Assembly (NCBI RefSeq): GCF_021442325.1
Contig: NZ_CP087879.1
Span: 186,001-250,000, forward strand
Direction of reading: 5' to 3'
DNA length: 64,000 nucleotides
From: Agromyces marinus
Lineage (GTDB): Bacteria; Actinomycetota; Actinomycetes; Actinomycetales; Microbacteriaceae
Part shown: positions 1,231 to 43,849 of the stretch, in pieces
Position numbering within the stretch: the stretch's first letter is position 1
Layout: each line of letters opens with the position of its first letter
The notes under the pieces: model-generated
What the model saw: only the letters and a program-made list of their open reading frames with translations
Told to the model about the DNA's origin: nothing
The model's database searches: none
Position numbers and translations under genes: made by a program

Positions 1231-2769
1231 GTGAAGACCCACCACGTGCGCGTCCACCGCAGCGATGAGAACCTGGCCCGCCCCGATCAGCTCGCCTGGA
1301 AGATCGCCGAGGTCGCGGTCGATCCGGTTGCGGTCGATGGTGATGTGGTGGAGATGGTCGTGAATCGGGTGATCGATAATGCGGCGGTGGCTGCGGCGTC
1401 GTTGGCTCGGGGGCCGGTGGTCGCGGCGCGTTCGCAGGCGTTGGCGCATCCGGTCTCGATCGGGGGTGCCGGGGCGAATGTGTTCGGGGTGGATGCGGGT
1501 CGGCGCACTTCTCCGGAGTGGGCGGCGTGGGCGAACGGGGTCGCGGTGCGGGAGTTGGATTTCCATGACACGTTCCTCGCGGCGGAGTATTCGCATCCGG
1601 CGGACAACATTCCCGCGGTGGTCGCGGTCGCGCAGCATTGCGCGGGCTCGCGTGGGTTGACGGGTCGGGATGTGGTGCGGGGCATCGCGACGGGGTACGA
1701 GGTGCAGGTGGACCTGGCCAAGGCGATCAGCCTGCACAAGCACAAGATCGATCATGTCGCGCATCTGGGGCCGTCGGCGGCTGCGGGGATCGGGACGTTG
1801 CTGGGGTTGGATCGGGAGACGATCTTCCAGGCGGTGGGGCAGGCGTTGCACACCACGACCGCGACGCGGCAGTCGCGCAAGGGTGAGATCTCGACGTGGA
1901 AGGCGCATGCGCCGGCGTTCGCGGGGAAGATGGCGGTCGAGGCGGTGGATCGGGCGATGCGGGGCCAGACCAGTCCGGTGCCGATCTACGAGGGTGAGGA
2001 CGGGGTGATCGCGTGGCTGCTGGACGGCCCGGACGCCGGGTACGAGGTGCCGTTGCCCGAACCGGGTGAGGGCAAGCGGGCGATCCTGGGCACGTACACG
2101 AAGGAGCACTCGGCGGAGTACCAGGCGCAGGCGTTGATCGACCTGGGTCGGAGGTTGCACCGGGAGTACCCGTTGATCCTGGACGACCCGGACCGGATCG
2201 AGTCGGTCACGATCCATACCTCGCACCACACCCATCACGTGATCGGGTCCGGGGCGGGCGACCCGCAGAAGTACGACCCGACCGCGTCGCGGGAGACGTT
2301 GGATCACTCGGTGCCCTACATCTTCACGGTCGCGTTGCAGGACGGTGCCTGGCATCACGTGGACTCGTACGCGCCGGAGCGGGCGGGCCGCCCGGACACG
2401 GTCGCGTTGTGGCGCAAGGTGGTCACGGTCGAGGACCCGGAATGGACCCGCCGGTACCACTCGCTGGACATGACGGAGAAGGCGTTCGGGGGCAGGGTCG
2501 TGATCCGCCTGGCCGATGGCGGCGAGATCGTGGAGGAGATCGCGGTCGCGGACGCGCACCCGCTCGGGGCGCGCCCGTTCGGTCGGGAGCAGTACGTGCA
2601 CAAGTTCCGCACCCTCGCCGAGGGGGTCCTGACCGAGGCCGAGATCGACCGGTTCCTCGACCTGGCCGTGCGTCTGCCCGACCTCGGCCCGGACGAGCTG
2701 ACCCACCTCACCATCACCGCCGCACCCGGCGCGCTCAACGGCGTCGACATCCCCACCGGCCTCTTCTGA
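1231..2769 (+). CDS. prpD: 2-methylcitrate dehydratase PrpD
   Basis: MmgE/PrpD-family dehydratase of 512 residues. It removes water from 2-methylcitrate in propionyl-CoA catabolism in the cytoplasm. The family's hallmark blocks are visible: the helical N-terminal domain with [15 protein letters not shown], then [17 protein letters not shown], the [22 protein letters not shown] region, [15 protein letters not shown], and a C-terminal domain ending [10 protein letters not shown]. The GTG start at 1231 is supported by a -10-like box 6 nt upstream. Codon use is odd. From about 1325 to 2350 the gene uses TTG Leu, GGG Gly, GTG Val and GAT Asp far more than its neighbours, while the last third returns to the C-ending style of the region. 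prpC follows 1.26 kb downstream, but prpB is absent between them. Confidence 0.93.
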
Positions 2770-2802
2770 CGTCCGTCGCCCCCGCTCGCTCCCTCTCGTC
2801 TG

Positions 2803-2848
2803 GACAGCTGTTGCGGGTCCGGGACCGCTGGAAGCCGCAACAACTGTC
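2803..2848. terminator. TTGCGG palindrome between prpD and the DUF559-type gene
   Basis: Arms 2803-2816 (GACAGCTGTTGCGG) and 2835-2848 (CCGCAACAACTGTC) pair over 14 positions with one mismatch, leaving an 18-nt loop. It lies between the ends of two convergent genes, so it can act as a bidirectional transcription stop, although no T-run follows. It shares CAG-N2-GTTGCGGGT with the hairpin at 3912-3949 on the other side of the gene at 2850-3809. Confidence 0.55.
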
Positions 2849-2849
2849 G

Positions 2850-3809
2850 TCACGAGCCGTGCTGACGGTGCGTGGGCGAGCGCGGACCGAGCGTGTCGGG
2901 AAACCAGCGTGACGGATTCGGCACGGAACGCCACCCTCGACGACGGAGGTTCGCGGCGATCCTGCGGATCAGAGCGTGCGGGTCATCGAGGTCCGCCTGT
3001 GTGACCTCGGTCACGTGGAACCCGAGGGCCTCGAGTTCGGCCTCGCGCGTGCGATCGCGTCGCCACTGTCGCACGTCGGTCCGATGATGGTCGCCCTGGT
3101 ACTCGATGATCTCGCCGAACTCCTCGAACAGCAGATCCACGCGGGCGACGAACCTCCCCCTCTCGTCGCGGACCTCGACGTTGACGCGCGGGCGAGGCAG
3201 CCCCGCGAGCACGATGAGCGCGCGCAACTCCGATTCCTTGGGAGACTCGCTTGCCGCGTCCACGAGATCGAGTGCCGTCGCGAGCCGCGCGTGCAACCGG
3301 CGGTCCGGGTGGTAGGTCGCTGCCCGCTCCAGTCGATCGACACCGACCAGGCGCACCGCGACATCCGCCGCTGCGACGAGTTGCGGCAGTGTCAGCGTGC
3401 GGGCCAGCTCGCACCAGGTGCGCGACAGCGTCGTGACACGTACGCCCCCGACGTTCGTGAGTTCGCGTTCGTCGATACGGAGGCTCCTGGCCTTCACGCC
3501 GACTCGGCGCACTGCGCGGGCCGGTGCCGGCACGGCCAGTTCGAGCCGGTCGCGCAGGGTCGCTGGGATCGGCAGTCCATGCAGGACCGCCGCCGTCGTT
3601 CCGCTGGCGAACGCTCGCGGATGCAGCACCTCCAGGGTGCTGCGGCACTTGTCGGCGTAGGTGTGCTCATGGTGCAGCCGCACCCCGCGGCTCGGCGCTT
3701 CGAGGTCGCGTGCGCGCAAGCGCGACGGGCTCACGCCGAGGAGGCGCGCTCGGGGCACGCCGAACCCAGTGCGGCGGATCGACTCTGGCAACTCGGCTCT
3801 GCGTGTCAT
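2850..3809 (-). CDS. DUF559-type PD-(D/E)xK endonuclease-like protein with AbiEi-like N-terminus
   Basis: 319 residues. The C-terminal part (about 195-290) has the Vsr/DUF559 pattern: SPKESELRALIVLAGLP, FVARVDLLFEEFGEIIEYQG with candidate catalytic D and E, QWRRDRTREAELEALGFHV and a closing LIRRIAANL helix. The N-terminal half resembles the proteins often labelled type IV TA AbiEi-like (HxxTAAVLHGLP-type block near residue 75). DNA cleavage is inferred from the fold and not established. The gene runs opposite to prpD and prpC and sits between them, with TTGCGG palindromes on both sides. No partner toxin gene is adjacent, so it stands alone. The start is ATG-type at 3809 with good family N-terminus spacing. 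Fold likely, biological role unknown. Confidence 0.75.
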   Translation of the reverse strand: MTRRAELPESIRRTGFGVPRARLLGVSPSRLRARDLEAPSRGVRLHHEHTYADKCRSTLEVLHPRAFASGTTAAVLHGLPIPATLRDRLELAVPAPARAVRRVGVKARSLRIDERELTNVGGVRVTTLSRTWCELARTLTLPQLVAAADVAVRLVGVDRLERAATYHPDRRLHARLATALDLVDAASESPKESELRALIVLAGLPRPRVNVEVRDERGRFVARVDLLFEEFGEIIEYQGDHHRTDVRQWRRDRTREAELEALGFHVTEVTQADLDDPHALIRRIAANLRRRGWRSVPNPSRWFPDTLGPRSPTHRQHGS

Positions 3810-10181: not shown

Positions 10182-11177
10182 TCACCCGTCATGCGTCGGG
10201 GTGGGTTCGCTGCGAGCTGCCGCGCGCGCCAGCGCGTCGCGCGCGGCGACGACCGCAGGGCGGCGGGATGCCGCGCGACGGGTCGAGGAGAACACCTCCC
10301 GGAACGGGTCCGCCGGGAGCGACGCGAGCTGCACGCTCGGGGGTTCGCCGGCCCAGACGAGATCGGGCAGGAGCCCGACGGCGTTGCCCGAGCGGATCAG
10401 CCGGATGTGAGCCATGAGGTCGGCCGTCTCGAAGCGCACGTCGGGCTCGAACCCGGCCTGGCGGCACAGCTGCTCGGCCCACTCCCGCGACGCGGTGCCG
10501 CGCGGCTCCATGACCCACGGGCGATCGGCCGCCGCGGCGAGGCCGTCGTCGGCGACGAGCCGCAGCAGTTCGGTCGGGGCGTGCATGGGCAGGGCGGCGG
10601 CGACCGGGTCGGGGCGCGGCAGCCCGCGCCGGCGCGCCGACGGGTGCGGGGGCAGTGCGAGCCGGATCGCGTCTCGTGCGAGCGGCACCCGGTCGAGTTC
10701 GGCGTGCAGCGGGCGAGTGTGGCCCGGGTACTGCTCGGCGATCACGAGGTCGAAGTCGCGCGCGGCGACGTCGAACAGGGCGATCTCGGGCTCGCGCTCG
10801 GTGACCTCCACGCGCAGCGACGGGTGCTCCGCGGCGAGGAGGGTGAGCGCCTGCGGGACGACGGCGTGCGCCGCGGACTGGAACACCGCGATGCGCACCG
10901 TGCCGCTCACCGTGGTCAGCGAGCGCGCGACATCCGCTTCGGCCTCTTCCAGCCGTTCGAGCACGGCCTGGGCGTGGCCGACGAGCAGTTCGGCCTGGGG
11001 GGTGAGCTGCACGCGGCGGCCGACCTGCACGAGCAGTGGGACGCCCGCCTCCTTCTCGAGCTGGCTCAGCTGCTGCGAGACCGACGACGGGCTGTACGAG
11101 AGCGCCTCGGCGACGGCCGTGAGCGTGCCGCGCTGTGCGAGTTCGACCAGGAGGCGCAGGCGTCGGACGTCGAGCAT
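10182..11177 (-). CDS. LysR-family transcriptional regulator
   Basis: 331 residues. The N-terminal winged helix-turn-helix (LRLLVELAQRGTLTAVAEAL, SPSSVSQQLSQLEKEAGVPL) is followed by the linker helix and the two-lobed LysR effector domain. It is transcribed away from putA across a 173-bp gap, the usual place for a regulator of the divergent operon. Control of proline catabolism by proline or a related amino acid is therefore a reasonable inference. No clean T-N11-A operator could be picked out. Confidence 0.88.
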   Translation of the reverse strand: MLDVRRLRLLVELAQRGTLTAVAEALSYSPSSVSQQLSQLEKEAGVPLLVQVGRRVQLTPQAELLVGHAQAVLERLEEAEADVARSLTTVSGTVRIAVFQSAAHAVVPQALTLLAAEHPSLRVEVTEREPEIALFDVAARDFDLVIAEQYPGHTRPLHAELDRVPLARDAIRLALPPHPSARRRGLPRPDPVAAALPMHAPTELLRLVADDGLAAAADRPWVMEPRGTASREWAEQLCRQAGFEPDVRFETADLMAHIRLIRSGNAVGLLPDLVWAGEPPSVQLASLPADPFREVFSSTRRAASRRPAVVAARDALARAAARSEPTPTHDG

Positions 11178-11350
11178 GCGTGGTCGCCTCCTTTCGTGGC
11201 ATCCGTCGTCTCCCGCCGGGAATCATTCGGGAAACACGAACAGTATGCATCGGATTCATTCGCTGTACTGAACGGATGCCGGGGCGCACACTGGAAGGGC
11301 GGGGCCGACAGCTCCCGCGCGCCCGACCGAGACCGAAGGACATCGCCGTC

Positions 11351-14300
11351 GTGACCACACCGAAGCTGCTCGCGGACGTACTCCCCGACACCGACCACGT
11401 CATCGCGCTCGTCGAGCGCTGGCTCGCCGAGAGCGAGCGCCACCCCGTCGACCCCGCGGCCGAACGCCTCGCGGGCGTGCTCAAGGACCCGAACGGGCTC
11501 GCGTTCACCGTCGGGTTCGTCGACGGCGTCATGCGCCCCGAAGACCTCGGCGTCGCCGCGCGCAACCTCGCCGAGGTCGCGAAGCTCACCCCGAAGTTCC
11601 TGCCGTGGTTCCTCAAGGCCGCCATCCGCCTCGGCGGCGCGGTCGCCCCGCTGCTGCCGTGGATCGTCATCCCCATCGCGCGCCGGGTCCTCCGGGCCAT
11701 GGTCGGCCACCTCGTGCTCGACGCGACCCCCGCCAAGCTCGGTCCCGCCATCGCGAAGCTGCGCGAATCGGGCAACCGACTGAACCTCAACCTCCTCGGC
11801 GAGGCCGTCCTCGGCGAGCACGAGGCCGACCGTCGCCTGCAGGGCACGTACGACTTCCTCGCCCGCGACGACGTCGACTACGTCTCGATCAAGGTGTCGA
11901 GCGTCGTCAGCCAGCTCTCGATGTGGTCGTTCGACGAGGCCGTCGAGAAGGTCGTCGCGAAGCTCACCCCGCTCTACGAGCTCGCAGCGCGGGGAGCGGC
12001 GCAGGGCAAGGCCAAGTTCATCAACCTCGACATGGAGGAGTACCGCGACCTCGACCTCACGATCGCGGTCTTCAAGCAGGTGCTCGAGCAGCCGCAGCTG
12101 CAGCAGCTCGAGGCCGGCATCGTGCTCCAGACCTACCTGCCCGACGCGCTCGGCGCCATCCAGGACCTCACCGAGTGGGCGCAGGCCCGTCGCGCCGCCG
12201 GCGGCGCTCCCATCAAGGTCCGCGTCGTCAAGGGCGCGAACCTCGCCATGGAGACCGTCGACGCCCACATCCACGACTGGCCGCTCGCGACCTACTCGAC
12301 CAAGCAGGACTCCGACACCAACTACAAGCGCGTCCTGCACTGGTCGATGACGCCCGAGCGCATCGACGCCGTCAAGCTCGGCATCGCCGGCCACAACCTG
12401 TTCGACGTCGCCCACGCCCACCTCACCGCGAAGGAGCGCGGCGTCGAGCACGGCGTCGAGTTCGAGATGCTGCTCGGCATGGCCACCGGCCAGGCCGAGG
12501 CCGTGCGCGGCGACGTCGGCCGGCTACTGCTCTACACGCCCGTCGTGAACCCGTCGGAGTTCGACGTCGCCATCGCCTACCTGATCCGCCGGCTCGAGGA
12601 GAACGCGAGCCAGGAGAACTTCATGTCGGCAGTGTTCGAACTCTCGCAGGACCGCGGCCTGTTCGACCGCGAACGCGACCGCTACCTCCGCTCGCTCGAC
12701 GCGCTCGACGGCGTGCCCGCCGACGCATCCGCACCCGCCCCGAACCGGACCCAGAACCGCCGCACCGAATGGGACGAGCAGGACGCCGCCGACCTCGGCG
12801 CCGTCGCCGGCGCGCCCGCGCCCGGCGACGAGCACGAGGGGTCCCTGACGAGCGTCGTGCTCGGCATCACGCGCGGTTCGGCAGCCGACGGCGAGGTGAC
12901 GGATGCCGCGGCATCCGCTCATCTCGCCGGATCCGGCCTCACGGGGCCCGGCGTCACCCCGGGCTTCCGCAACGAACCCGACACCGACCCCGCCCTCGCG
13001 GCGAACCGCGACTGGGGACGCCGGATCCTCGCCCGGGTTCCGGGATCGACGCTCGGCATCGACACGCTGCGGGCCAACCGCATCGAGACCGCCGACGAGC
13101 TCGAGTCGCTCATGACCGCCGTCACCGAGCGCGGCGCCGCATGGGGCGCCCTGTCCGGGGACGAGCGCGCGGCTGTGCTGCATCGCGCCGGCCTCGCGCT
13201 CGCCGCGAACCGCGACCGCCTCATCGAGGTCATGGCCGCTGAGACCGGCAAGACCATCGACCAGGCCGACCCCGAGATCAGCGAGGCGATCGACTTCGCG
13301 CACTACTACGCCGAGCGCGCCCGCGAACTCGACCACGTGCAGGGCGCCCGCTTCGTGCCCTCGAAGCTGACCGTCGTCACGCCGCCGTGGAACTTCCCCG
13401 TCGCGATCCCCGCCGGCGGCGTGCTCGCGGCGCTCGCCGCGGGCTCGGGCGTCATCATCAAGCCCGCGAAGCTCTCGCAGCGCTCGGGTGCGGTCATGGT
13501 CGAGGCGCTGTGGGAGGCCGGCATCCCCAAGGACCTCCTCGCGCTCGTCGACCTCGGCTCGCGCGATCTCGGCACCAAGCTCGTCTCCGACGAGAAGGTC
13601 GACCGCGTCATCCTCACGGGCGCCTACGAGACGGCAGAGCTGTTCCGGTCGTTCCGCAAGGACCTGCCGCTGCTCGCCGAGACGAGCGGCAAGAACGCGA
13701 TCATCGTCACGCCGTCGGCCGACCTCGACCTCGCGGCATCCGACGTCGTCAAGAGCGCGTTCGGCCACGCCGGCCAGAAGTGCTCGGCCGCGTCGCTCGT
13801 GATCCTGGTCGGGTCGGTCGCGAAGTCCGAGCGGTTCCGCCGCCAGCTCGTGGACGCCGCGACGAGCTTGCGCGTCGGCTGGCCCGAGCACCCCTCCAGC
13901 CAGATGGGGCCCCTCGTGGAGCCCGCGGACGGCAAGCTGCTGCACGCCCTGACCACGCTCGGCGCCGACGAGGAATGGCTCGTCGAACCGCGACGGCTCG
14001 ACGACACCGGCCGGCTCTGGTCGCCCGGAGTTCGCGCGAACGTCAAGCCCGGGTCGTACTTCCACCTCACCGAGTTCTTCGGACCGGTGCTCGGCATCAT
14101 GCACGCGAAGGACCTCGACGAGGCCATCCGCTTCCAGAACGCCGTCGACTTCGGGCTCACCGCCGGCCTGCACTCGCTCGACGCCGACGAGCTCGCGACG
14201 TGGCTCGACCGGGTCGAGGCCGGCAACCTGTACGTCAACCGCGGCATCACCGGCGCGATCGTGCAGCGCCAGCCGTTCGGCGGATGGAAGCGCTCCTCCG

Positions 14301-14989
14301 TCGGCGCGGGCGCGAAGGCCGGCGGACCGAACTACCTGTTCGGGCTCGGCGACTGGGCGCCCGACCACTCCGAACCGAGCCGGTCGCTGCACCTGCGCGG
14401 GCTCGAGCAGCGCGTGAGCGACCTCATCGAGGCCTCGCAGTCCTCCCTCGCCTACGAGGAGTACGAGGTGCTGCGCAGGTCGGCGCTCTCCGACGCGGTC
14501 GCGTGGGCCGACGAGTACGCCACGGTGAAGGACGTGTCGGGCCTGGGCGTCGAGCGGAACCTGTTCCGCTACCTGCCCGTGCCGGTCACCGTCCGCGTCA
14601 GCGAGGACGCCGCGCTCGCGGACGGCCTGCGCATCATCGCGGCGGGCCTGCTCGCCAGGTCGCCGCTCGCGGTCTCGACCGCGCACGAGCTGCCGAAGGG
14701 CGTCCGCGCACTGCTCGCGGCCCGCGACATCCGCATCGTCCGCGAGGGCGACGCCGGCTGGATCGACCGCGCCGCGAAGGGCGAGGTCACCGGGCGGGTG
14801 CGCCTGCTCGGCGGCTCGCCGAGCGCCCTCGCCGAGGCGACGGGCGGCACGCCCGACCTCGCGGTGTGGTCGCACCCGGCGACGCCGTCGGGTCGTGTCG
14901 AGCTGCTGCCGTTCCTGCACGAGCAGGCGATCTCGATCACGAACCACCGCTTCGGCAACCCGACCACGATCTCGGACGGGGTCATCTAG
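11351..14989 (+). CDS. putA: Bifunctional proline dehydrogenase / P5C dehydrogenase
   Basis: 1212 residues, oxidising proline to glutamate in two steps. The FAD-dependent proline dehydrogenase barrel covers about residues 90-490 (KVSSVVSQLSMW, FINLDMEEYRDLDLT, VRVVKGANLAME, GIAGHNLFDVAHA). The aldehyde dehydrogenase covers about 570-1060, with LAETSGKNAI and the catalytic cysteine in GHAGQKCSAAS. A C-terminal domain follows. No N-terminal ribbon-helix-helix domain is present, so control probably lies with the divergent LysR gene. The GTG at 11351 follows GAAGGA, and the longer upstream frame is rejected. The TAG stop (14987-14989) lies inside the CTAGC target duplication of the adjoining insertion sequence, so the protein is intact. 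Confidence 0.95.
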   Translation: MTTPKLLADVLPDTDHVIALVERWLAESERHPVDPAAERLAGVLKDPNGLAFTVGFVDGVMRPEDLGVAARNLAEVAKLTPKFLPWFLKAAIRLGGAVAPLLPWIVIPIARRVLRAMVGHLVLDATPAKLGPAIAKLRESGNRLNLNLLGEAVLGEHEADRRLQGTYDFLARDDVDYVSIKVSSVVSQLSMWSFDEAVEKVVAKLTPLYELAARGAAQGKAKFINLDMEEYRDLDLTIAVFKQVLEQPQLQQLEAGIVLQTYLPDALGAIQDLTEWAQARRAAGGAPIKVRVVKGANLAMETVDAHIHDWPLATYSTKQDSDTNYKRVLHWSMTPERIDAVKLGIAGHNLFDVAHAHLTAKERGVEHGVEFEMLLGMATGQAEAVRGDVGRLLLYTPVVNPSEFDVAIAYLIRRLEENASQENFMSAVFELSQDRGLFDRERDRYLRSLDALDGVPADASAPAPNRTQNRRTEWDEQDAADLGAVAGAPAPGDEHEGSLTSVVLGITRGSAADGEVTDAAASAHLAGSGLTGPGVTPGFRNEPDTDPALAANRDWGRRILARVPGSTLGIDTLRANRIETADELESLMTAVTERGAAWGALSGDERAAVLHRAGLALAANRDRLIEVMAAETGKTIDQADPEISEAIDFAHYYAERARELDHVQGARFVPSKLTVVTPPWNFPVAIPAGGVLAALAAGSGVIIKPAKLSQRSGAVMVEALWEAGIPKDLLALVDLGSRDLGTKLVSDEKVDRVILTGAYETAELFRSFRKDLPLLAETSGKNAIIVTPSADLDLAASDVVKSAFGHAGQKCSAASLVILVGSVAKSERFRRQLVDAATSLRVGWPEHPSSQMGPLVEPADGKLLHALTTLGADEEWLVEPRRLDDTGRLWSPGVRANVKPGSYFHLTEFFGPVLGIMHAKDLDEAIRFQNAVDFGLTAGLHSLDADELATWLDRVEAGNLYVNRGITGAIVQRQPFGGWKRSSVGAGAKAGGPNYLFGLGDWAPDHSEPSRSLHLRGLEQRVSDLIEASQSSLAYEEYEVLRRSALSDAVAWADEYATVKDVSGLGVERNLFRYLPVPVTVRVSEDAALADGLRIIAAGLLARSPLAVSTAHELPKGVRALLAARDIRIVREGDAGWIDRAAKGEVTGRVRLLGGSPSALAEATGGTPDLAVWSHPATPSGRVELLPFLHEQAISITNHRFGNPTTISDGVI

Positions 14990-14990
14990 C

Positions 14991-16066
14991 TGTACTTCCC
15001 ACGGTGGTTGTGTGCAGCGTGGTGTGACGGGGTGAGGTGAGGACCTCCGGTATCGATGTGGGTTACCACACTCACTCGACACAACGGAGGTCCTCGTGTC
15101 CTACGCTACCCATGCCCGTGCTGCGCTCACCGTGACCGGGCGGATCAAGATCGCGTTGCTCGTCGTCGACGACGGGTGGACACAGGCTCGTGTCGCTGAA
15201 CGGTTCCAGGTCGCTCGTGGCACGGTGTCGAAGTGGGTCGCCCGGTACCGGGCAGGCGGGCGTGCGGCGATGCAGGATCGGTCCTCGAAGCCGAAGGTCT
15301 CGCCGTCGCGGACGCCGCAGCGCACCGAGCGTCGCATCATCGGGTTGCGGGTGAACCGGCGCTGGGGTCCGCACCGGATCGCGTACCACCTCGGCCTGCC
15401 GCAGTCGACGGTCTCGAAGGTGCTGAACCGGTACCGGGTGCCGCTGCTGGGACAGGTCGACAAGAACACCGGAGTCCGGGTCCGCAAGCCCAAGCCCGTC
15501 CGCTACGAACGCGCCGTGCCGGGCGAACTGGTGCACGTGGACGTGAAGAAACTCGGCCGCATCCCCGACGGCGGCGGGTGGCGCACCCTGGGCCGTTCCG
15601 CAGGGCGCAAGCACCGGTCCGGGGCCGGCTACTCGTACCTGCATTCCGCGATCGATGACCATGCCCGCCTGGTGTACTCCGAGATCCTCGACGACGAACG
15701 CAAGGACACCGCCGCGGGGTTCTGGGAACGCGCGAACGCGTTCTACACCGGCCACGGCATCACCGTGCAACGCGTGATGACGGACAACGGGTCCTGCTAC
15801 CGCTCGAAGGCATTCAACGACGCGCTCGGCGAGAACGTGACGCACAAGTACACCCGCCCGTACCGGCCACAGACGAACGGCAAGATCGAGCGGTTCCACC
15901 GCACCCTCGCCGACGAATGGGCATACGCCCGGCACTACGCGTCAGACCAGCAGCGCGCCACGAGCTACCCCGACTGGCTGCATCACTACAATCACCACAG
16001 ACCCCACACCGGGATCGGCGGCCTCGCACCCATCGACCGCGTCCACAACGTCAGTGGGAAGAACAA
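14991..16066 (+). mobile_element. IS481-family insertion sequence
   Basis: About 1076 bp. The ends are imperfect inverted repeats, TGTACTTCCCAC on the left (from 14991) and, read inward, TGTTCTTCCCAC on the right (to 16065), with a further GTTGTG match inside. The flanks show CTAGC on both sides (14986-14990 and 16067-16071), a target duplication of the CTAG type known for this family. It holds one transposase gene, which appears intact. The left CTAG supplies the stop codon of putA and the right CTAG that of the transposase. Confidence 0.9.
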
Positions 16067-16070
16067 CTAG
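15096..16070 (+). CDS. IS481-family transposase
   Basis: 324 residues. An N-terminal helix-turn-helix (DDGWTQARVAERFQVARGTV, second HTH around 80-110) is followed by the retroviral-type catalytic core with Asp149 in HVDVKK, Asp230 in VMTDNGS and Glu265 in NGKIERFH (34 residues between the last two), then the GGLAPIDRV tail. It cuts and joins DNA at the element's ends. The GTG start follows GGAGG at 15086-15090. The stop codon TAG (16068-16070) lies in the target duplication, outside the element. All catalytic residues are present, so it may be active. Confidence 0.93.
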   Translation: MSYATHARAALTVTGRIKIALLVVDDGWTQARVAERFQVARGTVSKWVARYRAGGRAAMQDRSSKPKVSPSRTPQRTERRIIGLRVNRRWGPHRIAYHLGLPQSTVSKVLNRYRVPLLGQVDKNTGVRVRKPKPVRYERAVPGELVHVDVKKLGRIPDGGGWRTLGRSAGRKHRSGAGYSYLHSAIDDHARLVYSEILDDERKDTAAGFWERANAFYTGHGITVQRVMTDNGSCYRSKAFNDALGENVTHKYTRPYRPQTNGKIERFHRTLADEWAYARHYASDQQRATSYPDWLHHYNHHRPHTGIGGLAPIDRVHNVSGKNN

Positions 16071-16121
16071 CGCGCCGGCGGCGGGCGCCGGGCGCTCGCC
16101 GCCCGGGTGCCAACCGGAACA

Positions 16122-16176
16122 CATGAGAATCCGGCCGATGCCCCCTCCAGCGGGGGACATCGGCCGGATTCTCATG
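16122..16176. terminator. Long near-perfect hairpin downstream of putA/IS481
   Basis: Arms 16122-16140 and 16158-16176 are perfectly complementary over 19 bp (core GAGAATCCGGCCGATG), and five further C:G pairs continue inward after one bulged A, leaving a 6-nt loop. It lies 15 bp before the 52-bp repeat copy at 16192. It probably served as a two-way terminator between putA and the gene that once ended here. No T-run follows. The 304-bp gap 16071-16374 otherwise holds the repeat copy and the permease leader. Confidence 0.6.
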
Positions 16177-16191
16177 CAGAACGGCGGCGCC

Positions 16192-16243
16192 TCACTCGCG
16201 CCCGCGGTTGCGGCGACGGATGGCGCGGGGCGCCCGCCCGCCG
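16192..16243 (-). repeat. 52-bp direct repeat, copy A (detached 3' end of the protease gene)
   Basis: Identical to 19150-19201 except for one base (C at 16201 against G at 19159). In copy B it encodes the last 16 codons and the stop of the retropepsin-like protease, so copy A is a detached gene end. The two copies bound the arcD-arcA pair. GGAAC follows both copies, offset by one base. Confidence 0.88.
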
Positions 16244-16374
16244 GGAACCCGCCGCCGCACCACCTCGCCTCGGCTCTTGTGCGTGCCCCGAATCCTGCGC
16301 TAGACACTGAACAGGTTGCGACAGCGCATCTCGGACCGACCGTTCCGCGGAGGCCCGGGTGGGGAGGGGCCCTG

Positions 16375-17832
16375 ATGGCATCGACCACCGGGCAGCGGGC
16401 GACATCGAAGCTCGGCCTGCCCGCGCTCACCGGCATGGTCGTCGGATCAATGGTCGGTGCGGGCGTCTTCCAGCTTCCGGCGCGCTTCGCCGGCCAGACC
16501 GGCGTGTACGGGGCGGTCATCGCCTGGGCGATCGCCGGACTCGGAATGCTGACGCTCGCGCTCGTCTTCCAGACGCTCGCGATGCGGAAGCCGAAGCTCG
16601 ACAACGGGGTCTACGTCTACGCACGGACCGGGTTCGGCGTGTACCCGGGGTTCCTCTCCGCTGTCGGCTACTGGGCGTCGGCGTGCGCGGGCAACGCGTT
16701 CTACTGGGTGCTCATCATGACCACCCTCTCGCAGCTGTTCCCCGAGCTCTCCCCGGTGCTCGGCGAGGGCGACACGTGGCCCGCGTTCATCGTCTCGGTG
16801 GCCGCGGTGTGGGGCGTCTTCCTGCTGATCCGGCGGGGCGTGCGCGAGGCCGCCGCCGTGAACTTCATCGTGACGATCGCCAAGCTGGTGCCGCTCGCCC
16901 TCTTCCTCCTGCTCGTCGCCTTCTTCTTCGACTGGGACGTCTTCGTCGGCAACCTCTCGGGCGATGCAGGCGCCGGCGGCGACTCGCTGTTCGCGCAGGT
17001 GCAGGGCACGATGCTCATCACCGTGTTCGTCTTCCTCGGCATCGAGGGAGCGAGCGTGTACTCGCGCTACGCGAAGAAGCGGTCGGACGTCGGCCGCGCC
17101 ACCGTGCTCGGATTCCTCTCGGTGCTGGCGCTCTTCGCTTCGGTCTCGATCCTGTCGTACGGAATCCTGCCGCAGGCCGAGATCGCCGCCCTCCCGCAAC
17201 CATCGGCGGGCGGCGTGCTCGAGGCGGCAGTCGGGCCGTGGGGCGGTGCGTTCATCCGCGTCGGACTCATCATCTCGGTGCTCGGCGCCTACCTGGCGTG
17301 GCAACTGCTCGCCGCCGACGTCGTCTTCGCCGCGGCGAAGGACCAGGATCTCCCGCGCTACTTCGCGAAGCAGAACTCCCGCGAGGTTCCGGAGCGCGCG
17401 GTGCTGTGGACCTCGATCCTCGTCACGCTCATCCTGTTCCTCGTCCAGTTCGTCGAGGACGCGCTCGACTTCACGCTCGACCTCACCGCGGCGCTCTCGC
17501 TCGCGCCGTACGCGCTCGCGAGCGCCTACGCCGTGAAGATCGCGATACGACGCGACGGGTACGAGGGCGCAGCGCCCGCGCGCCGCAACCGCGAACTCGT
17601 GATCGCGGCGATCTCCACGGCGTACACGCTCTTCCTGATCTGGGCTGCCGGCTACGTGTTCCTCTTCATCGCATGCATCCTGCTCGCGCCCGCGACGGCG
17701 CTCTACGTCGTCGCCCGACGTCAGCAGCAGGCGAAGGTCTTCACCCCCGCCGGGCTCGTCGTCTTCATCGTGATCGTCGCATTCGCCGTGGTGGGCGTGG
17801 TCCTGCTCGCCACCGGAAGCGTCCAGCTCTGA
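16375..17832 (+). CDS. arcD: APC-family basic amino acid antiporter, ArcD-like
   Basis: 485 residues with about 12 membrane helices. The N-terminal [20 protein letters not shown] is the APC substrate-binding break in helix 1, and [21 protein letters not shown] is the conserved helix 6 and loop. The protein fits the basic amino acid/polyamine antiporter group that exchanges arginine for ornithine. The next gene, 35 bp on, is arginine deiminase, which supports an arginine substrate. The ATG at 16375 follows a GGGGAGGGG ribosome-binding site, and the longer frame back to 16054 passes through the hairpin and is rejected. Confidence 0.85.
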
Positions 17833-17867
17833 ACAGATCCGCGCCGCGGCGCAGAAGGGAGCACGCC

Positions 17868-19106
17868 ATGTCGCACCAGTCGTACGGGGTCCACTCCGAG
17901 GTCGGCCGGCTCCGGAAGGTCCTGGTCTGCCGGCCGGGGCTCGGGCACGAGCGGCTCACGCCGAGCAACAGCGATGCCCTCCTGTTCGACGACGTGCTCT
18001 GGGTGCAGAACGCCCGGCGAGATCACGCCGACTTCGTGCAGCACCTGGGCGACCGCGGGGTCGAGGTCGTCGAGCTCCACGACCTCCTCGCCGAGACCCT
18101 CGCGGTGCCCGATGCCCGCGACTGGCTGCTCGATCGCAAGATCGTCGCGAACGAGGTCGGATCGGGCCTCGTCGCCGACACGCGGGCGTTCCTCGACGCA
18201 CTCGACCACGCGACGCTCACCGAGTACCTCATCGGCGGGCTGTCGACGCGCGATCTCCCGGAGGAGTTCCGGTCATCCGAGGTCGCCCTGGTCCGCGAGT
18301 CCGCGGGGATGACCGAGTACCTCATGCCACCGCTGCCGAACACGATCTACACGCGCGACACGACGTGCTGGATCTACGGCGGCCTGACGCTGAACCCGCT
18401 CTACTGGCCGGCACGGCACGCCGAGACCATGCTCATGAAGGCGATCTACCGGTTCCATCCCGACTACGTCGGCAGCACCGTGTGGTGGGGCGACCCGGAG
18501 CAGGACTGGGGTCAGGCGACGCTCGAGGGCGGCGACGTCATGCCCGTCGGCAACGGCGTCGTGCTCATCGGCATGAGCGAGCGCACCTCCCGCCAGGCGA
18601 TCACGGCGGTCGCTTCGCGGCTGTTCGAGGAGGGAGCCGCACAGCGCGTCGTGGTCGCCGGCATGCCCAAGCTTCGCGCCGCGATGCACCTCGACACGGT
18701 CTTCACGTTCGCCGACCGCGACCTCGTGACCTACTACCCCGACATCGTCGACGGCATCCAGACGTTCTCGCTTCGTCCGGCCGACCGCGGCGGCGTCGAG
18801 GTCACGGAGGAGCGCTCGTCGTTCATCGACGTCGTCGCCGAATCGCTCGGGCTCGCGAAGCTGCGTGCGGTCGAGCCCGGCGGCGGGTGGTATGCCGGCG
18901 AGCGCCAGCAGTGGGACAGCGGCAACAACGCGGTCGCGGTCGAGCCGGGCGTCGTGTTCACCTACGACCGCAACACGTACACGAACGCGCTGCTCCGCGA
19001 TGCGGGCGTCGAGGTCATCGAGATCGTCGGCGCCGAACTCGGGCGGGGGCGTGGCGGGGGGCACTGCATGACCTGTCCGATCTCCCGCGACGCGGTCGAG
19101 TACTGA
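17868..19106 (+). CDS. arcA: Arginine deiminase
   Basis: 412 residues, hydrolysing arginine to citrulline and ammonia. The pentein-fold signatures are all present: [28 protein letters not shown], the HLDTVF histidine block, [12 protein letters not shown] and the C-terminal [17 protein letters not shown] with catalytic Cys400. AAGGGAG precedes the ATG at 17868. The longer frame upstream is a shadow of arcD. arcB and arcC, which normally complete the ATP-yielding pathway, are not in the window, so the pair may serve acid tolerance or nitrogen supply instead. Gene pair and flanks lie between 52-bp direct repeats. Confidence 0.95.
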
Positions 19107-19149
19107 GCGGATGCCGGTGGGCTCGCCGCTCGCGGCTCGGCCCGTCAGG

Positions 19150-19201
19150 TCACTCGCGGCCGCGGTTGCGGCGACGGATGGCGCGGGGCGCCCGCCCGCC
19201 G
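19150..19201 (-). repeat. 52-bp direct repeat, copy B (3' end of the protease gene)
   Basis: Matches 16192-16243 with one mismatch. It begins exactly at the stop codon of the gene it belongs to, the arrangement usually seen where an element has integrated at a gene's 3' end. Confidence 0.88.
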
Positions 19202-19632
19202 AGGAACGAGCGCCCGGCGTCGACGAGGAACCCCGTGCGCAGCGCCTCGCGGCCGATGAGCATGCGGAAGCCCATCTCGTCGCGGTTGGTCAGCGTGACC
19301 TCCGCGGTCACCTCGCGGCCGAGCAGCACGACGTCCATGAGCACGACCAGCCGCTCCTGGGTGTGCCCGGTCGAACTGCGGACGACCCGGCGATCATGCA
19401 CTGGAGTCTCGATCGCCGTGGCATCCGCATCGGAGTTCTGCCAGGGATGGATGCCGAAGCGCACCCAGTCCGCACCGTCGCGCTCGAACTCCTCGACGTC
19501 GAACGCGTGCAGCGCCGACGAGCGCGCACCTGTGTCGAGCTTCGCCTTGATCCACTCGACTTCGGCCTGAGGCAGGCGGACCCATTCGCGCCATCCGGCG
19601 ATGGTGTTTGAATGGGTCGACACGTCCGTCAC
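19150..19632 (-). CDS. Retropepsin-like ATP-dependent zinc protease family protein (RimK-associated)
   Basis: About 160 residues. AGWREWVRLPQAEVEWIKAK leads into LDTGARSSALHA, a DTGA aspartic-protease-type motif (Asp near residue 33), and IGREALRTGFLVDAG closes the single retropepsin-like domain. The family is named ATP-dependent zinc protease, though its chemistry is uncertain. Homologues commonly sit beside RimK-type ligases, as here, where rimK starts divergently. A GTG at 19656 would extend it by 8 residues but leaves only 2 bp to rimK, so 19632 is preferred. The last 16 codons exist a second time at 16192-16243. Confidence 0.78.
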   Translation of the reverse strand: MTDVSTHSNTIAGWREWVRLPQAEVEWIKAKLDTGARSSALHAFDVEEFERDGADWVRFGIHPWQNSDADATAIETPVHDRRVVRSSTGHTQERLVVLMDVVLLGREVTAEVTLTNRDEMGFRMLIGREALRTGFLVDAGRSFLGGRAPRAIRRRNRGRE

Positions 19633-19658
19633 CAGATCATCTTCGCAGGGACCCACGC

Positions 19659-20861
19659 ATGAAACTCGCGATCCTGTCGCGCGCGCCCCAGGCCTACTCC
19701 ACCCAGCGTCTCCGTGCGGCCGCGCAGCAACGCGGGCACGACGTCAAGGTCCTGAACACCCTCCGCTTCGGAATCGACCTCTCGGGGGCCGAACCCGACC
19801 TGCAGTACCGCGGTCGCCCGCTGTCGGACTACGACGCGATCCTGCCCCGCATCGGCAACTCGATCACGTACTTCGGCACGGCCGTCGTGCGCCAGTTCGA
19901 GCAGATGGACGTCTACACCCCGAACACCGCGAACGGCATCACGAACGCGCGCGACAAGCTCCGCGCGAACCAGATCCTGTCGCGCCACAACATCGCGCTG
20001 CCCGCGACCACGTTCGTGCGCAACCGCGCCGACCTGCGGCCCGCGATCGAGTCGGTCGGCGGCGCGCCGGTCGTGATCAAGCTGCTCGAGGGCACGCAGG
20101 GCATCGGCGTCATCCTCGCCCCGACGGTCAAGGTCGCCGAAGCCATCATCGAGACGCTGCACTCGACCAAGCAGAACGTGCTGATCCAGAAGTTCATCGC
20201 GGAATCGCGCGGGCGCGACATCCGCGCCCTCGTCGTCGGCGACCGCGTCGTCGCGGCCATGCGACGCGTCGCGAGCGGCGACGAGTTCCGCTCCAACGTG
20301 CACCGCGGCGGCAGCGTCGAGCGGGTCGAGCTGACGCCCGAGTACGAGCAGGCGGCCGTGCGGTCGGCGCAGATCATGGGGCTGAAGGTCGCGGGAGTCG
20401 ACATGCTCGAGGGCAACGAGGGCCCGCTCGTCATGGAGGTCAACTCGTCGCCGGGCCTGCAGGGCATCGAGACGGCGACGAACCTCGACGTCGCGGGGGC
20501 GATCATCGACTACATCGGCAACCAGGTCGCGTTCCCCGAGATCGACGTACGCCAGCGGCTCACCGTCTCGACGGGGTACGGCGTGGCCGAACTGCTCGTG
20601 CACGGCGACGCCGACCTCATCGGCAAGACCCTGGGCGAGTCGGGGCTCTGGGAGCGCGACATCACGGTGCTCACCCTGCACCGCGGCACCACCGTGATCC
20701 CGAACCCGCGCAAGGGGGTCGTGCTCGAGGCCGAGGACCGCCTGCTCTGCTTCGGCAAGCTCGAGGAGATGCGCTCGATGATCCCCGAGCGCCGTCGCCG
20801 TCGGCAGAAGGTCCGTCGCCTGCCGAAGGAACCCATCCCGGTCTCGGACGTCGCGTCCTGA
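19659..20861 (+). CDS. rimK: RimK-type ATP-grasp glutamate ligase with C-terminal RCK_C domain
   Basis: 400 residues. The RimK N-terminal domain (KLAILSRAPQAYSTQRL) is followed by an ATP-grasp fold: TFVRNRADLRPAIESVGGAP, VIKLLEGTQGIGVIL, VLIQKFIAES and MEVNSSPGLQGIE with the metal-binding E and N. Residues about 318-385 (GVAELLVHGDADLIGKTLGE, ITVLTLHRGTTVIPNP) form a TrkA-C/RCK_C-like domain not found in E. coli RimK. The enzyme probably adds glutamate to ribosomal protein S6 or another carboxyl acceptor, perhaps under a ligand sensed by RCK_C. The ATG follows AGGGA. Confidence 0.88.
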   Translation: MKLAILSRAPQAYSTQRLRAAAQQRGHDVKVLNTLRFGIDLSGAEPDLQYRGRPLSDYDAILPRIGNSITYFGTAVVRQFEQMDVYTPNTANGITNARDKLRANQILSRHNIALPATTFVRNRADLRPAIESVGGAPVVIKLLEGTQGIGVILAPTVKVAEAIIETLHSTKQNVLIQKFIAESRGRDIRALVVGDRVVAAMRRVASGDEFRSNVHRGGSVERVELTPEYEQAAVRSAQIMGLKVAGVDMLEGNEGPLVMEVNSSPGLQGIETATNLDVAGAIIDYIGNQVAFPEIDVRQRLTVSTGYGVAELLVHGDADLIGKTLGESGLWERDITVLTLHRGTTVIPNPRKGVVLEAEDRLLCFGKLEEMRSMIPERRRRRQKVRRLPKEPIPVSDVAS

Positions 20862-40963: not shown

Positions 40964-41035
40964 TCAGGACAACGGCACCACGCACGACGGCGCGCGCAGC
41001 GCGAGCGCCTCGCGCACCGCGCCCGTGACGAGGTC
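40964..41035 (-). repeat. 72-bp repeat, copy A (detached 3' end of a lactonase gene)
   Basis: Aligns in frame, without gaps, with the last 24 codons of the lactonase gene (42806-42877), differing at 6 of 72 positions. Read on the minus strand it encodes [21 protein letters not shown] and a stop, with no gene attached. Confidence 0.85.
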
Positions 41036-42789: not shown

Positions 42790-42806
42790 AGGCGGAAGCG
42801 CCGCCT
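42790..42806 (-). terminator. Hairpin at the end of the lactonase operon
   Basis: AGGCGG (42790-42795) and CCGCCT (42801-42806) form a perfect short stem around AAGCG, touching the lactonase stop codon. Confidence 0.4.
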
Positions 42807-42877
42807 CAGGCGAGCGGCACCACGCACGACGGCGCGCGCAGCGCGAGCGCCTCGCGCAGTGCGCCCGTGACCAGGTC
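42806..42877 (-). repeat. 72-bp repeat, copy B (3' end of the lactonase gene)
   Basis: In-frame counterpart of 40964-41035 (66 of 72 positions identical), here as the genuine 3' end of the lactonase gene, beginning at its stop codon. Confidence 0.85.
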
Positions 42878-43849
42878 GAGCTCGATGAGGGCATTGCCGA
42901 ACTGTGCGGCCACGACGACCGTGCGGTCGTCGAGGTGGGCGTGGTGGCGGGGCCAGGTTCCCGTGCCGAGCGGGTGCTCGGCCGCGAGGCGCGGAACGCC
43001 CGCGCCCTGAGCCTCTCGACGGGCGGCATCGAACACCGCGACCGTGTCTCGCCCGCGCACGAGCGTCGTGAGCAGCCGGCCCGAGGGAGCGAGATCCAGG
43101 TGCGACGGGTACACGTCGCCCTCGGCATCCGGGTCGAGCACCGCGGCGGCGCTGCCGAGAGGCGAAACCTCCGTCGCGTCGAACGCGAACGTGTGCAGGC
43201 GGCCGTCGAGTTCGCCGATCACGTGCAGCACGCCCTCCGTCAGCACCATGTGCCGTGGGCCGGTTCCGGCCGGCAGGTCGAGCGAGCGGACGACGCGGAG
43301 CGTCGGCACCGCGGCATCCGCCGTCTCGACGGTGAACTCGTGGACCGCGTCACCGCCGAGGTCGCTCACGAGGTGCGTGCCCCACGGAGTCGCGGCGATC
43401 TGGTGGGCGTGCGGCCCATCCTGACGGCCGGTCACCGGTCCGGTGCGGTGCGGCAGTGCGAGGGTTCTCGGCGTTCCGAGCGTGCCGCCCGAGGCGAACG
43501 GGACCACCGTCACCGAGCCGCCCGAGTAGTTCGCGATGAGCACGAGGCTGCGCGTCGCGTCGACCACGACGTGGCACGGGTCGCCCTCGCCGTGCTCGAC
43601 CGCGTCGACCGGCGTGAGCGTGTTTCCGACCAGGCGGAAGCTGCGCAGCGAGCCCGAGGCATCTTCTCCGACCGCGAACCACAGGTCGTCGTGCACCGCG
43701 AGGAACGACGGATTCGAGGCCTCCGCCGAGGCGACGATGCTCCAGTCACCATCGACCGACCGCTCCACCACGTGCACGCCCGGACCCGGACCATCGGGCG
43801 TGTACGACCCGACCGCGAAGCGGCGCGCTGCGCGCCCCTCGCCCGTCAC
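42806..43849 (-). CDS. Lactonase, 6-phosphogluconolactonase-like seven-bladed beta-propeller
   Basis: 347 residues of beta-propeller repeats. [20 protein letters not shown] opens blade 1, [20 protein letters not shown] and [20 protein letters not shown] are the family's blade motifs, and [20 protein letters not shown] and [20 protein letters not shown] carry the conserved His residues. It belongs to the YbhE-type lactonases, which open sugar lactones. Its start overlaps the stop of the alpha-hydroxyacid dehydrogenase gene (ATGA), so it is the last gene of that operon. Its 3' end has a duplicate at 40964-41035. Confidence 0.87.

Follow-up and report, generated by a model that had tools for sequence, protein, structure and literature searches.

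The genes arcD and arcA of the genome G000 lie between two copies of a 52-bp sequence, and this sequence is the 3′ end of the neighbouring protease gene. The duplicate could be considered as the scar of a late recombination at a variable spot, not as the footprint of a mobile element; comparison of the sequences gives this reading about an even chance. The sequences show the repeat and its uniqueness in the tested regions, the repeat-free occurrence of the two genes (arcDA, hereafter) in relatives, the lack of a pfkB orthologue in G000, and the variability of the spot. The locus as a whole is an ordinary one.

The protease gene end and its detached copy

The window is the whole stretch of 64 kb analysed here (positions 186001–250000 of contig C1), and the G000 genome of 3.2 Mb is one contig. 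The features of the locus, in positions of the window, are as follows.

11135–14989, plus strand: ORF with an uncertain start, the left anchor, taken to be putA (bifunctional proline utilisation) as in the earlier reading
14990–16066 (first base 14990 or 14991), plus strand: insertion sequence of the IS481 family at the putA stop codon, one of four genome copies
15096–16070, plus strand: IS481 transposase (NF033577, 347.7 bits, cut-off 224)
16122–16177, no strand: near-perfect palindrome of 56 nt, a member of a dispersed family (fold z −8.2)
16192–16243 (to 16248 with one gap), minus strand: left copy, the detached protease 3′ end (self-comparison)
16252–16374, plus strand: arcD leader, aligned with the putA–arcD intergenic DNA of relatives; the start is approximate
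16375–17832, plus strand: arcD, basic amino acid antiporter (TIGR00905, 457.5 bits, cut-off 409)
17868–19106, plus strand: arcA, arginine deiminase (PF02274, 448 bits)
19150–19201, minus strand: right copy, the genuine protease 3′ end from the stop codon (self-comparison)
19150–19656, minus strand: gene of the RimB-like retropepsin / ATP-dependent zinc protease family (PF05618, 130 bits, cut-off 27)
19659–20861, plus strand: rimK, the right anchor (PF08443; NF007764 above cut-off)

Against TIGR03810, the arginine-ornithine antiporter, arcD scores 481 bits, under the cut-off of 591. arcA is above the cut-off of NF002381 and slightly under that of TIGR01078 (487.9 vs 489.1). The protease gene scores 103 bits against NF052261 (RimB), under the cut-off of 200. 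The putA and rimB-like protease genes are convergent, and the variable spot is between them.

According to the self-comparison of the window, 16192–16243 and 19150–19201 are identical at 51 of 52 bases, with arcD and arcA sitting between them. The lone mismatch, at column 10, is C in the left copy and G in the right copy. It is synonymous, and the minus-strand translation of either copy is GGRAPRAIRRRNRGRE-stop. If one gap is allowed, the repeat extends to 16248/19207 (58 columns, 96.6%, E 3e-19). A preliminary description of this DNA had already reported the repeat with its one mismatch, the right copy as the genuine protease end starting at the stop codon, and the left copy as a detached end just after a long hairpin, and all of this is confirmed. 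The left copy starts about 15 bases past the hairpin, which is very stable.

In the DNA that precedes each stop codon, no similarity was found between the left and the right side. Matching coding ends next to unlike pre-stop DNA are to be expected if two alleles that differ in their downstream history have been joined, and recombination between strains is favoured for this reason. Both copies have CT after the stop codon. Among relatives whose protease sequence is available, the six nearest lack this CT. Since it is also seen in nine of the other 57 genomes (G046 and eight more), CT is a weak marker and not a clear mark of the G000 lineage.

When the left copy and its flank are compared with the whole G000 genome, the sole long match besides the sequence itself is the protease end. 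The other matches are 24–53 bases long, and one of them (35 bases, 91%) is within the 52-bp stretch. A general intergenic repeat family was also considered and rejected. Every long match in a relative is that genome's own protease end, and the rest are short pieces or the hairpin. With partial matches only, the repeat is not the widespread intergenic family that the preliminary description had named as a possible objection to its own reading.

At the criteria used for the self-comparison (at least 35 bp, at least 88%, E ≤ 1e-8, word 16), the window contains two direct repeats, one of which flanks arcDA. The other (72 bp, 92%) is at 40964–41035 and 42806–42877. The copy at 42806–42877 begins at the stop codon of the minus-strand ORF 42806–43849, and the copy at 40964–41035 likewise begins with a stop codon, which belongs to an open frame on the minus strand. 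Possibly these are two related genes.

Family search of the two genes between the 52-bp copies, the antiporter and the arginine deiminase, found no recombinase, in agreement with the earlier statement that no integrase is present. The complete IS481-family element between putA and the hairpin had been omitted from that description; it is not a site-specific integrase.

The IS481 family prefers CTAG targets. Here, CTAG is seen on either side of the element (14986–14989 and 16067–16070), and the TAG stop codon of the transposase comes from the flanking CTAG. The other three copies in G000 show 0, 1, and 2 differences from the window copy over the 1085 bases from CTAG to CTAG. All four copies have CTAG at both sides, and this short target duplication fits their membership of the family. 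The window copy is outside the repeats, with about 126 bp separating its end from the left copy. This closeness and the presence of four copies could suggest that an IS481-driven rearrangement made the duplication. However, CTAG at both sides of every copy is as after simple insertions, and the ends of the element are clear of the repeat. Such an origin is very improbable.

The hairpin before the left copy belongs to a family of dispersed palindromes of 56–61 bp, which occur in several Agromyces genomes. Searching with a covariance model built from eight G000 copies (E ≤ 0.01) gave 24 matches in G000, 22 in G018, 5 in G007, 32 in G046, and 1 in G009. No matches at this threshold are seen in G026, G034, and G042. 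Most palindromes match on both strands, so the matches were merged by hand to elements: at least 12 in G000, at least 11 in G018, at least 3 in G007, at least 17 in G046, and at least 1 in G009, all of them lower bounds, with 150 of the 2,037–3,112 first-look candidates scored per genome. The palindromes of G000 are near 173, 179, 202, 346, 354, 394, 395, 412, 489, 2721 (two), and 2728 kb of the contig. Counted from dnaA, 12/12 elements of G000, 11/11 of G018, 2/3 of G007, and 14/17 of G046 are in the origin-proximal half. This half was picked with the G000 result already in view, and an element inherited at one position enters these numbers twice. For clustered palindromes, the corresponding numbers are 10/10, 8/8, 2/3, and 13/16, the single element of G009 being left out. 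Covariation in the eight-row alignment of palindromes is modest: four pairs are changed on both sides, which is matched by 19 of 500 shuffles. No Rfam family reaches its gathering score over 14900–19700. Other palindromic repeats (GAGTTCGCAGGATGA...TCCTGCGAACTC) are seen by eye in relatives between pfkB and the protease gene (loci L053–L055).

The spot between putA and the protease gene in relatives

The protease is seen in 58 of the 60 Agromyces genomes sampled, including G000 itself. Regions were taken from the other 57, and the window was added as the 58th. In 50 of the 58 regions, with one genome per species, the C-terminal 330 aa of putA is located close to the protease; the eight regions without putA in the fetched stretch were left out. 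The gap between the two genes is nearly empty in 27 of the 50, where the last aligned putA residue is within 452 bp of the protease stop, and occupied by 1.05–6.2 kb in 23 (the putA matches of G023 and G028 are partial and may be mis-assigned, and the gene end of G055 is unlike that of the family).

arcD-arcA is within the gap in five of the 50 regions (G000, G012, G025, G029, and G018). The order is putA-arcD-arcA-pfkB-protease in G012 and G029, putA-arcD-arcA-amidohydrolase-pfkB-protease in G025, and putA-ORF-pfkB-arcD-arcA-protease in G018, where arcA is about 20 bp from the protease gene. The genes of relatives are taken to be pfkB and amidohydrolase from their sequences. G022 has the order putA-pfkB-protease. 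G011 has putA-arcD-arcA-amidohydrolase-pfkB, and its contig ends in pfkB. Both rimK and the protease gene were looked for in G011 and not found. In other Agromyces, such as G015, arcA is away from the protease gene. The right flank of arcDA differs among G000, G018, G025, and the pair of G012 and G029, and no right end is common across lineages.

The last 70 bases of each region's own protease gene were compared with the rest of the region in all 58 regions. Matches at E ≤ 1e-3 are seen in nine regions. That of G000 spans 58 columns (E 5e-23) and is the only long one; those of the other eight regions span 21–45 columns. Eighty named loci, overlapping some of the same genomes, gave 10 short or weak matches, the longest of which is 64 columns at 75%. 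The 52-bp duplicate is private to G000 among the 58 Agromyces protease regions tested. No flanking repeat copies of comparable quality are seen in G012, G025, G029, and G018, which carry arcDA at the same spot. Nor is a second protease-end copy of comparable quality seen in the arcDA-free relatives examined. The preliminary description had predicted that putA would adjoin the protease gene beside a single gene end at an empty site. The near-empty relatives show this arrangement, and none of the empty-site relatives examined has two such copies.

The same description proposed that arcDA had entered as an element at the gene end and had duplicated it. More specifically, arcDA might be a mobile cassette, site-specific at the protease 3′ end, which made the 52 bp as an att duplication, its recombinase either having acted in trans or having since been lost. 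The repeat begins at the stop codon and completes the gene. Regions without arcDA have no comparable second copy, arcA is found elsewhere than at the protease gene, and the arcA tree conflicts with the marker tree (see below), all of which would be consistent with a cassette. Against this, arcDA lacks bounding repeats in G012, G025, G029, and G018, and arcA is followed there at once by pfkB (G012 and G029) or amidohydrolase (G025), or after about 20 bp by the protease gene (G018). Besides, only arcD and arcA were identified between the repeats, and IS481 is outside with its CTAG flanks intact. A cassette of this type is unlikely. That arcD-arcA is a clean on/off cassette, an integrase-less unit which moves among Agromyces strains with the protease gene end as its landing place, is hardly probable. 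If a cassette were present, recombination of the copies would remove the arginine deiminase and the antiporter and restore the same protease, and the locus would hold an integrase-less mobile unit of gene ends; the relatives argue against it. Thus, from the reading of a gene-end insertion, the repeat and the detached copy are retained, and the entry of an element is not, as arcDA is already at this spot without repeats in four relatives. Horizontal movement of arcDA is still likely.

No orthologue of pfkB is found in the G000 genome, the best own match being 35%. The main rival explanation, a tandem duplication followed by differential loss, begins with an ancestor of the order putA-arcDA-pfkB-hairpin-protease. 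Duplication from the arcD leader to 52–58 bp inside the protease gene would be followed by loss of the first arcDA-pfkB and of the second pfkB-hairpin, and the hairpin and a gene end would be left on the left of arcDA. This route yields the junction observed near 16248–16252. It also explains the missing pfkB, the position of the hairpin next to the left copy, and the order of pfkB and arcDA in G018 versus G012, G025, and G029. However, three events are needed, and G018 has no remnant copy. Moreover, as no similarity was found in the pre-stop DNA of the copies, the endpoint of the second deletion would have to fall nearly on the protease stop codon. The tandem route is possible but doubtful.

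Divergence of arcDA and age of the duplication

The arcA and arcD genes of G000 show 10–14% DNA difference from those of G011, G012, G025, and G029, and 17–19% from those of G018. The difference is 10–12% for putA from the same four genomes and 8% for rimK from G012, G025, and G029. The tree paths from G000 are 0.18–0.19 for arcDA and 0.12–0.13 for putA and rimK, and the rpoB and gyrB path to the five nearest rows is 0.13–0.15. Judged from these distances, G000 and the relatives have diverged in arcDA no less than in the core genes. The probability of at most one difference in 52 is 0.028, 0.0022, and 0.00013 at assumed per-site divergences of 0.10, 0.15, and 0.20, respectively. As the copies differ at one of 52 positions while arcDA differs by 10–14%, the duplication should have arisen after arcDA diverged from that of the relatives, unless the copies were homogenised by gene conversion. 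Such conversion could preserve their likeness and give a false impression of youth. An insertion of arcDA which brought the duplication with it, as first proposed, fits these values poorly.

The rpoB and gyrB tree places G000 outside the group of G007, G018, G012, G025, and G029 (support 100/99). This fork is not resolved when putA and rimK are added, nor with putA and rimK alone. In the arcA tree, G000 is grouped with G011, G012, G025, and G029, excluding G018 (100/99); this tree covers 10 of the 15 genomes with a strong arcA match, and its root is uncertain, the chosen outgroup not being one side of any branch. The arcDA tree was rooted on G018 by choice. The one-clade tests of the markers also covered G011, whose own history shifts its position, and are not tests of G000 alone. 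Since the arcA and marker trees disagree, the history of arcDA is not purely vertical, and some horizontal movement is likely. The arcDA of G018 may be a separate acquisition. By parsimony, the presence of arcDA in the common ancestor and its loss in G007 is the simplest history, and separate gains are possible. There is thus some room for arcDA to have entered G000, but not in the form of a fixed-end cassette. A late re-entry of arcDA from a near-identical, unsampled donor is conceivable.

G011 offers a hint of exchange at this locus. Over the C-terminal 72 residues of putA, it differs from G025 at 8% of 4-fold sites, and its arcA is also closest to that of G025, while rpoB and gyrB place G011 with G022. 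The locus, including the flanking core gene putA, might have been exchanged. Alternatively, this may be contamination, which is possible in this assembly of 840 contigs, of which C132 carries the putA/arcDA locus.

The preferred explanation of the duplicate in G000 is one-sided homologous recombination. The DNA would come from a closely related donor cell that already carried arcD-arcA joined to this protease gene end. One crossover, on the protease/rimK side, would be homologous; the second, at the arcD leader, would be illegitimate. What remains on the left would be the gene end of the recipient, the hairpin with the 52 bp, and on the right the donor's end would complete the protease gene. 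The end of the left copy (16248) roughly coincides with the start of the leader common to relatives, at 16252 with G012. The local alignments of the leader start at 16252 (G012), 16268 (G029), 16234 (G011), and 16202 (G025), a range of 16202–16268. The boundary is approximate, since the alignments of G011 and G025 extend into the left copy across GC-rich DNA with gaps. If DNA entered in this event, the donor's protease end was 98% identical to that of the recipient, with arcDA already joined to it. The identity of the donor, the direction, and the order of events are what we infer.

RecA-dependent recombination between the two copies is expected to delete arcDA and leave the protease frame intact. 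A repeat similar to an attachment site could arise without an integrating element, and the locus could be an example of gene turnover where no integrase is seen.

Comparison with known systems

Elements that integrate at gene ends with tyrosine recombinases are bounded by a direct repeat of the 3′ end of the gene, which is thereby completed. Similar to them, the arcDA segment is bounded by a direct repeat of the protease 3′ end, and the gene is complete. Unlike them, arcDA shows neither a recombinase between the repeats nor constant ends, and the segment is free of repeats in relatives.

Hotspots without integrases, at which recombination occurs at flanking core genes, are among those described by Oliveira et al. 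2017 (PMC5635113). The spot between putA and the protease gene resembles the hotspots outlined there: conserved genes flank a gap, its content varies among genomes, and no integrase is seen at this site in the window. Unlike in that study, one genome per species is compared here.

Homology-facilitated illegitimate recombination is a process of transformable bacteria, in which it is shown by experiment, as outlined in PMC6382021, whereas in Agromyces it is suggested by one scar. One homologous and one non-homologous junction, as in that process, would give the anatomy seen in G000.
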